From Chromera velia (taxonomy: Eukaryota; Sar; Chromeraceae): a stretch of 64,000 nucleotides of DNA. Where the stretch lies: the NCBI GenBank assembly GCA_018398765.1, contig JAHBMJ010000488.1:62001-126000 (forward strand), written 5' to 3'. The position numbers were made by a program, and so were the translations under genes. The notes under the pieces are model-generated. The model was not told the DNA's origin and did no database searches. It was given only the letters and a program-made list of their open reading frames with translations. The stretch's first letter is position 1, and each line of letters opens with the position of its first letter. Shown piece by piece: positions 212 to 30,668 of this stretch.

Positions 212-3200
212 CTCTCCGGGCAGGTCGATGTCCTTGTCGAGGTTGCACTGCCTGGCGGTAGCAACGATGGAGTTGCAGATGGAGGGTCCTCTTGCTTCGT
301 TCTCTCTGAGGGCCTGGTAGGACTTGACCAACTCGGAAAGCTCCTTCAGACCCTTGTACAGCCCGGCGTTCTCAGCAGGGGGGGTCAGGTAAGAGATCGT
401 GGCGGCGTAGGAGCTGCATTCATTCGTGTTTTCATTCATTCATTCATTCATTGATTCATTCATTCATTCACTCATTCATTCATTCACTCGTTCGTCATTC
501 ATTCACTCGTTCGTCATTCATTCATTCATTCATTCATTCATTCATTCATTCATTCACTCGTTCGTCATTCATTCATTCATCCATCCATACATTCATTCAC
601 TCATCCATTCATCCGTTCCTTCATTCATCCAGTGCTTTCACTTGTTTAGTCAGTTTCGGAGGGAGGGAGGGAGGCAGGGAGGGAGAAAGGGAGATTTCGT
701 GTCAACAGCTGCAGTGAAGCACGTGGAGAGAGACAGATAGGCGCATGCAATGCAAGGGCATGCCTCGAGGAGGAACTCAAGAAGCTGTGTTCCCTTTCTT
801 TTGGGGACAGGACACACACGCACACACGCACACATACACACACGGCCAACAGGCTGCTGACCGTCTCTTGGCGATTGTGGCTTCGGAGGGGTTGTTGGCG
901 GCGTAGTAGTAGAGGTTCGGGGTTGTGCCGATGAGTTTGTCGGGGTAGCATCCTTCGGACATGCCCACCTGCTTGCCGGGCATGAACTCCAGAGAACCGT
1001 GGGTACCGAAGTGGAGGACTGCGTCGGCACCGAAAACCTGCAATTTCAATTCCAATGTAAGTGCGTCCGTTGACGGGGGGCGGGGGCTTCGGGGAAGGCA
1101 CCAAAAAAACACAATACATCAGACGTGCTTGGGGGAAGGAAATTCAGGGTGCACCGAATAACCAATCGGCCTGCGGGGCGTTCAAGACTCAGGGCAGCCG
1201 TCTCTCTTTCTCTTTCTGACTTATGCACGATACACAAGTTGGCAAGAAGGCGATTCGCTCTGTAGATTCATGTATCGGTTCCTCGGTGATTGCTTTTGTT
1301 TGCCTGTATTTACTTTCATACAGAATTCTTTTTCTGGATGAAAGTAAATACAAAAACAATTAAAACGGGTTCCTCGGTGATTGCTTTTGTTTGCCTGCCG
1401 ACCTTCTCGAGATAGGTGTAGTAGGCGGCAAATCCGTGGTGGGGGGAGGCGGACTTTGCGAAGAGGAGTCTCATCGGATCGCCCTCGTACCCGAAGGTCG
1501 GCTGGATGCCAATGAAGACGTTGCCGAACTTGACACCAAGCACCAGCATGTTCTGACCGTCGCTGTTCAAGTTCCCGGGAGCAGGGCCCCAGTTCTCCTC
1601 CAACTCCTGAAAGAAGGAAAATTACATGCGTTTATTTTCATCCAGAAATGAAAAATGAAAATAAAAAATGAATTCTGTATGAAAATAAACGCAAGCAGGG
1701 CCCCAGTTCTCCTCGAGCTCCTGGAAGAAGAAAGAGAGAAAGAAGGAAGGAAAAAGGGCAAGAGATTTCATTCATACTGTGAGTGAAAAGGGAACCAGTC
1801 CAGTTCCTCGGCAGCCACGGGAACGGCGAGGGCGTAGATGGATTAGCAAGAAGGGCAGACAGAGTGTTAGGCAGAAACATCGGAACGGATGCTGACTGAA
1901 GAGAGAGAAGCAGACCGACCGACCGACCGACCTTGTAGTAGGGTGTGAGTTCCTTGTACTCCTTCACGGGCATTTTGTACGCCACGTTGAGTGTGGGGGA
2001 GTCGAACTTGGCCTCCTTGTCATGGAGGACAGAGTTCATCAACGCCTCAGGGGATTCGGGGAGGGTCTCGCCGAGATCGTACCCTCTCTCCTTCAGCTCA
2101 CCCAGAACCTGATCGCGGGAAGCAAATAAACAGAGGCAGATATACAATGAGTTAACGTTATCATACACGCAAAGGTGCTCCAGATCGCTCCTGCTGCGCA
2201 CACCCAGAGCCTGGACACGAAACATGAAAGGGAAGGGCGAACCCAGAGAGCCTTGAGACGTCCGACGGAAGAACTCACTCACGGAGGCAGCAGGAAAGGA
2301 ACACTATGCATGCGCCAAAACAAAAAAACAACAGACAGACAGACAGACCTGATAGATGGAGTTGAACACGTCCAGGTAGGCCGCCGTGCCGACGTTTCCC
2401 TTGTCGGGAGGGAAGGAGAAAACCGTCACTGCAACCTTCTTGTCCTTGTTGGGCTTCCGGCGAAGGGAAGACCACTTGGCAACGCGCTCAGCGAGGAGAG
2501 AAATACGGTCCTGCAGGTGAGTGAGGAGAGGAGATGGATGCATGTTTGTTCGTTCATTCATGAAGATCGATCAAGAAAGTAAACGTCTCCCTCTGTTCAA
2601 CCGGGCTAGGAACCTCCCTCGGTGATGGTAGACAGCGGGAGAGGAACCTTGTGGGCAACTAGGTATGAAAGCCGTTTGCAAAATGGCATGAAGAGACCGA
2701 GACAGAGTCACACACAGAGATCCCAAAAAGAAAGGAAAGGAGCCCTTTCGCCCCCCCCTCTTCTCAACAAAACGACCGACCAACCGCCATCGGGACGTTC
2801 CTTCCAGTCACACCCTCACGTCCAGCGAAGATGAGAGGCTCGATAGCACCATCGATCTCGGGCAGAGAGACCTGAAGGGAACGGAAGGGAAAGGAGAGAG
2901 AGCACAAAAGAGGTGGAGGCCCAAAAAGAAAGAAAGAAAAGACGTCCAAAAAAGAAAGAAAAAAAAGGATGACCCGGGATTTGGGAAAGAAAAGAGCCTC
3001 GCATCCTTTCTTCTTGCTTTCACGGACCAACTAATGAAAGCCCACTCTGCATGCGTGTACCTGTCTGCCCTGTGCACATCCCCCTCCCCCCCCCCCCCNN
3101 NNNNNNNNNCCCCCCCCCCCCCCCCCGACCTGCAATGCCACTTGCACAGGGTGGAGTCCGAGCTCGCTCTTCTTCCACTCCTCGAAGGTCTGAAACACAA

Positions 3201-30400: not shown

Positions 30401-30668
30401 GGAACCTCTTCTGTCCATCTTTTTGTTTTCTATCTCTCCTTTTCGTTCTTTTCAGTTTGCTGAAGCTTTGAGGAGCCGCGATCCCTGAAAAGAATTCTGT
30501 ACGAAAATAAATGCATGCATCTTTTCAGTTTGCTGAAGCTTTGAGGAGCCGCGATCCCTCTGGCGTCGGGCTCCCCGTCTCTCTGGCTCGGGATCTTCTG
30601 AGGAAACTGCTCGAGGTGCAGCCCCAAGTGAGCAGCCAGACAGCGAGTTGCCACAAGCACTCGATTGA

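Follow-up and report, generated by a model that had tools for sequence, protein, structure and literature searches.

MITEs are short and AT-rich with inverted arms, features they have in common with the Chromera velia inserts described here. In Daphnia, intron gain by staggered-break repair has been proposed, where fill-in generates direct repeats around inserted DNA; the inserts of these proposed gains are mutually unrelated and their repeats are short. R2-type enzymes jump from RNA to RNA.

Introner elements of Amoebophrya are themselves the introns, and direct repeats of 3-5 nt overlap the intron ends, according to the accessible text of PMC7789003. For introners more widely, the accessible text of PMC9860276 gives duplications of 3-9 bp, and Chromera is absent from its main text. 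Non-LTR reverse transcriptases can jump between templates and produce inverted copies, and human L1 duplications peak at 14-16 bp, as far as the accessible text of PMC2912911 goes.

At the chlH locus of C. velia, probably a photosynthetic relative of apicomplexans, small hairpins are flanked by host-sequence repeats of 30 and 37 bp. A literature search covering open-access papers returned no title or abstract that describes such elements.

Three inserts in the window

The window is the whole stretch of DNA that was analysed, 64,000 nucleotides long. Its chlH gene was identified from three exon stretches matching CobN/Mg-chelatase in Pfam (E 2.6e-15, 3.2e-23 and 3.1e-34), of which the E 3.2e-23 match is CobN-Mg_chel at 1391-1615 on the minus strand. 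The relevant features are as follows.

1277-1306, no strand: element 1, first direct repeat copy, 30/30 identical to 1368-1397
1307-1367, minus strand (of the motif): element 1, 61-bp hairpin insert in a chlH intron, from repeats, motif and folding
1368-1397, no strand: element 1, second direct repeat copy, about 6 nt into the intron on the minus strand of the gene (donor position by eye)
1403-1606 (ends by eye), minus strand: chlH exon between elements 1 and 2, from coding HMM (1366-1607) and Pfam CobN-Mg_chel
1580-1616, no strand: element 2, direct repeat copy with 3′ splice site and exon start, 34/37 identical to 1694-1730
1617-1693, plus strand: element 2, 77-bp hairpin insert, from repeats, motif and folding
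1694-1730, no strand: element 2, second direct repeat copy, within the intron (34/37 identity)
30447-30486, no strand: element 3, direct repeat copy with 3′ splice site (by eye) and exon start, 40/40 identical to 30520-30559
30487-30519, plus strand: element 3, 33-bp single-armed (half) insert, from repeats, arm count and folding
30520-30559, no strand: element 3, second direct repeat copy, running on into a kinase-like exon (by eye)

The original prediction had placed two hairpin elements in neighbouring chlH introns, in opposite orientations and each bracketed by a long copy of host sequence, and they are found as described. The inverted arms lie at 1305-1325 and 1332-1352 in element 1 and at 1627-1647 and 1673-1693 in element 2, each pair being 21 nt long and 95% complementary. 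Element 1 has the CTGTAT arm form on the minus strand and element 2 has it on the plus strand, which makes their orientations opposite. When folded as single-stranded DNA, elements 1 and 2 have z scores of -7.37 and -7.20, respectively, with 0/200 shuffles equally good in either case.

Ungapped extension of the element 2 repeat reaches 40 nt at 90% identity. As had also been predicted, this repeat spans the 3′ splice site (by eye) and the start of the chlH exon, the latter agreeing with the CobN-Mg_chel match. The element 1 repeat starts at about intron position 6, and the donor lies outside it (by eye). The predicted core motif is indeed present genome-wide (545 exact matches), but its sequence had to be amended for element 1, which carries TTTACTTTCATACAGAA rather than TTTATTTTCATACAGAA.

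Element 3 is a third family member in the window and was missing from the original prediction. Past its first repeat copy, the reading frame runs into a TGA at the insert (frame by eye). The insert does not fold beyond its shuffles (z 0.71; 141/200 equally good).

No Rfam family reached the gathering score within the window. Permissive Rfam matches in three other loci, mostly to microRNA-precursor models, were all below the gathering score and were taken as hairpin look-alikes. The chlH gene region also contains a TTCA-type simple repeat at 420-620 and a C-run interrupted by a short N run at 3085-3127.

A genome-wide family of short inserts

The genome searched comprises 177.8 Mb in 4,040 contigs; the published assembly is given as 193.66 Mb in 5,953 scaffolds in the accessible text of PMC4501334. 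The 545 exact matches of the core motif compare with 0 for the reversed motif, which rules out chance, and 1,981 matches with up to two mismatches compare with 2. Because a two-armed copy can count twice, elements are fewer than motif matches. A 24-nt form of the motif has 0 matches in viral contigs.

Eighty loci (L009-L088) were inspected together with the window. This sample is non-random, because L009-L048 are the top of the contig-ordered list of exact matches and L049-L088 were drawn from 63 places matching a longer arm pattern. With up to one mismatch allowed, the motif forms 93 clusters, which come from the window and from 76 of these loci; L051, L052, L054 and L056 gave none and were left out. 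Eighty of the 93 clusters are simple, having at most two motif matches.

Using a score of at least 15 as the threshold for a flanking repeat, 84/93 clusters have one. Locus-specific direct repeats flank 72 of the 80 simple clusters, with a median repeat of 33.5 bp (5-95% range, 18.5-53) and a median insert of 70 bp. The same score is reached by 2/400 cross-paired flanks of different elements and by 22/346 random positions. The two chlH hairpins are thus members of a dispersed, genome-wide family of tiny, often palindromic inserts that look like mobile DNA, and the flanking repeats foreseen for it do recur.

Repeat lengths run from 15 to ~65 bp with no single fixed size, and G+C content is 0.30 in inserts, 0.55 in repeats and 0.48 in loci. 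The nine clusters below threshold include near misses at L074 (17-19 bp, allowing a gap of two bases) and L088 (a half unit between 14-bp copies), and also L023 and L085, where no clear flanking repeat is seen. Self-BLAST among the sampled loci returned no convincing insert-free copy.

Some other repeats were noted. At L013:900-1020, two 33-bp repeats ending in CACAGGT surround a 50-bp motif-free insert, possibly a tandem-duplication intron. At L020:90-270, 44-bp repeats surround a 90-bp insert, AT-rich and without relation to the motif; this repeat resembles EGF-type coding sequence ending at a donor (by eye), and it is perhaps a second insert family of the same architecture. L024:4552-5166 is a tandem array adjoining an N run, with a ~103-bp unit consisting of repeat and element.

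When the inserts are aligned, their longest form emerges as a near-perfect palindrome of ~82 bp with AGCGCT at its centre. Its 56-bp core is found at one place only in the genome with up to three mismatches, the centre being lost or rearranged in other copies; short-read assembly may drop further palindrome centres. Among 73 non-array inserts with repeats, all shorter than 125 bp, two arms are seen in 44 and one in 27, and the rule of the script left 2 unassigned; some of the 27 retain a degenerate second arm. The predicted hairpin form is thus not universal.

In 24/38 two-armed elements both arms carry the same 5-mer next to their core, while 5,000 permutations average 11.5 such elements and never exceed 19. 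Such matching of variable positions is as expected if both arms derive from one template. Head-to-tail joins at or near unit ends occur inside single repeat pairs at seven loci (L057, L065, L071, L074, L077, L079 and L084); the scan for unit joins gave 20 matches, six of which were unrelated by eye. Half units are present as well (for example, L059 and L088). Taken with the joins, these halves suggest that what is copied is a unit of ~41 nt.

The insert ends are ragged with many stop points, [TC]GCA following the arm in 70/128 ends and [TC]GCATGCA in 21/128. Where half elements are seen, any constancy of the 3′ end is subject to preselection of one end by the search motif and to masking of polarity by the palindrome.

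Possible mechanism of insertion

We estimate a probability of roughly 45% that these inserts were copied from a very short mobile element, non-autonomous and with a ~41-nt unit, a free template being copied at a staggered break. The copied unit would be roughly GGAGCGCTCCCTGAAAAAGAATTCTGTATGAAA[G/A]TAAA[C/T]GCA. The template, most likely RNA, would be copied at a staggered chromosomal break, perhaps by target-primed reverse transcription, and is predicted to be ~41-46 nt long, starting near GGAGCGCUCC and ending near AAACGCA.

Several features of the inserts could follow from such copying. Copying that halts after one unit would leave a half element, and copying that switches templates on reaching an end would make a head-to-tail join. 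Because the far end GGAGCGCTCC is self-complementary, snap-back copying would yield a palindrome with matching arms. Filling in of the staggered break would create direct repeats of 15-60 bp. The RNA template, the reverse transcriptase and the staggered nick are all inferred.

The genome contains at least 150 scored RVT_1 matches. At L089:703-1800, a reading frame open for at least 366 aa holds a reverse transcriptase fragment closest to R2 (E 1.5e-26) and LINE-1 (E 8.9e-17) proteins; this LINE/R2-like fragment is no more than a candidate for a link to the inserts. Neither an A-tail nor a source gene or partner element turned up for the inserts, and no nick consensus is obvious in the 29 oriented ones.

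With no nick consensus, tail, source gene or partner found, the rival to be taken seriously is break repair with captured filler, which we regard as possible but on the doubtful side. Staggered breaks would be filled in to give the repeats, and abundant short nucleic acid would be ligated or copied in as a passenger of repair with no dedicated enzyme. Variable repeat length, ragged ends and rearranged inserts are all consistent with this, as are the few repeats that flank motif-free inserts (L013:900 and L020:90). However, one sequence at hundreds of loci is odd for random filler, and the clear cases in the 64-kb window are all motif-bearing (3/3 by eye, the rest being low-complexity or tandem repeats).

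The inserts might instead be MITEs, that is, transposase-mobilised miniature DNA transposons bounded by terminal inverted repeats, as they are palindromic, AT-rich and dispersed. We consider this unlikely, since the repeats have no one size, the ends are imprecise, and half elements and unit joins are common. Repeats of varying length and imprecise ends speak against cut-and-paste movement of a MITE; they suggest instead that a short free template is copied at a staggered break.

Exon boundaries and known systems

Coding sequence around the inserts was predicted by a coding HMM without splice signals, which was trained on the same loci and applied to the rejoined sites. Its sensitivity is limited, as it recovers the chlH exons but puts the exon near 30529 on the wrong strand. 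A boundary was called when a predicted exon boundary fell within the repeat ± 12 bp.

Exon boundaries occur in 32/84 repeats versus 226/2,309 control windows (OR 5.7, p 2e-11), in agreement with the splice-site enrichment that was anticipated. Restricted to the 10-kb loci and the window, the counts are 10/30 versus 418/3,596 (OR 3.8, p 0.0016), and in shorter loci they are 22/54 versus 107/1,425; an earlier run with other controls gave 32/84 versus 90/876.

Predicted coding sequence lies within 60 bp on at least one side of 47/84 inserts. It is on one side only in 42/84 (control 14.8%), on both sides, or mid-exon, in 5/84 (17.8%), and on neither side in 37/84 (67.4%). The one-sided share of 42/79 against ~18% expected under uniform insertion with exon purging points to targeting, or to exon preference followed by rescue.

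The coding HMM gives a stronger signal than a generic splice-site matrix, which shows only a weak excess in the repeats, with donors in 20/84 versus 172/952 (p 0.19) and acceptors in 33/84 versus 250/952 (p 0.015). TGCAG is raised within 7 nt of the junctions (17/1176 versus 17/5880 far away); its similar rise at repeat edges in boundary and other loci, together with the 37/84 inserts away from predicted coding sequence, suggests that location may partly be plain sequence preference.

Among boundary loci, recognised Pfam domains are EGF (L015), trypsin-like (L064) and TPR (L059); epimerase (L026) and CAP (L034) matches are below the Pfam cut-off, and L086 has no Pfam match. At L082:432-830, inserts are found at both edges of one predicted exon, with one repeat over the acceptor side and the other ending in CAG|GT.

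Two candidate signals were dropped. The intact arm of half elements does not always face the intron (11/16, not significant). Open frames through the rejoined sites are uninformative, as a length of 100 aa is attained by 63/72 of them and likewise by 82.6% of 344 control windows.

The original prediction also raised the possibility that the elements create or rebuild introns. As an introner, the insert would carry or recruit splice sites and turn into a new intron. Inserts are near splice sites above expectation, and GTATGA, GTAAAT and T-rich stretches with a CAG after them can be read in their arms (by eye). On the other hand, the mid-exon share falls below that of controls, and AGGT proto-splice sites show no clear enrichment in the repeats (25/84 with AGGT on either strand, ~20.9 sites expected at even base composition). 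Many inserts lie at boundaries of already existing introns, and the chlH and kinase-like cases of the window are in introns or at existing splice sites. The introner reading is therefore only partly supported; judged by sequence, the inserts mostly do not seem to make new introns, and introners as the explanation appear very unlikely.

A tandem-repeat or assembly artefact, with minisatellites or misassembly in place of insertions, is highly improbable. In its favour, some loci (L024 with its 103-bp unit, and L037) are true tandem arrays in which repeat and element are amplified together, and short-read assembly copes badly with palindromes; but the repeat differs per locus while the insert is common to loci, and repeat copies carry point changes (mean identity 0.962 over 84 pairs, 30/84 identical).

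Returning to the mobile element with a ~41-nt unit, we tentatively suggest a fuller course, which we hold to be less than an even bet by some way. The unit would be copied, snapped back and concatenated at staggered breaks with a preference for exon edges, and the duplication, by copying the splice site, would supply its own rescue. Judging from the anatomy, a long duplication that includes the splice site and the edge of the exon would keep that exon spliceable, which could be why insertion is tolerated; duplicated splice sites would thereby rescue the host gene.

If so, tandem splice sites left by insertion would be raw material for intron-end shifts and alternative splicing. By duplicating the edge of an exon along with its splice site, insertions would offer a way, different from that of introners, for mobile elements to produce duplicated splice sites and shifted intron ends. 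How copying was done may be recorded in the short unit, the joins and the palindromes.

Compared with MITEs, the Chromera inserts have neither a fixed duplication length nor precise ends. They also differ from the proposed staggered-break intron gains of Daphnia in having one recurring insert sequence.

SINEs, 5′-inverted L1 and tailless TPRT retrocopies are alike in variable duplications, truncated or inverted copies and junction microhomology, and the putative copying of a free-ended template in Chromera resembles that by non-LTR reverse transcriptases; compared with L1, the Chromera repeats are longer, and no tail, nick consensus or partner was found (PMC2912911, accessible text). Introners in general share the form of short repeated elements in genes, where target duplications can supply splice sites (PMC9860276, accessible text). 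The introners of Amoebophrya are similar in their foldable inverted arms, direct repeats, genome-wide spread in an alveolate and lack of an internal transposase, whereas the Chromera repeats are 15-65 bp and lie mostly where an already present intron ends or away from predicted coding sequence (PMC7789003, accessible text).
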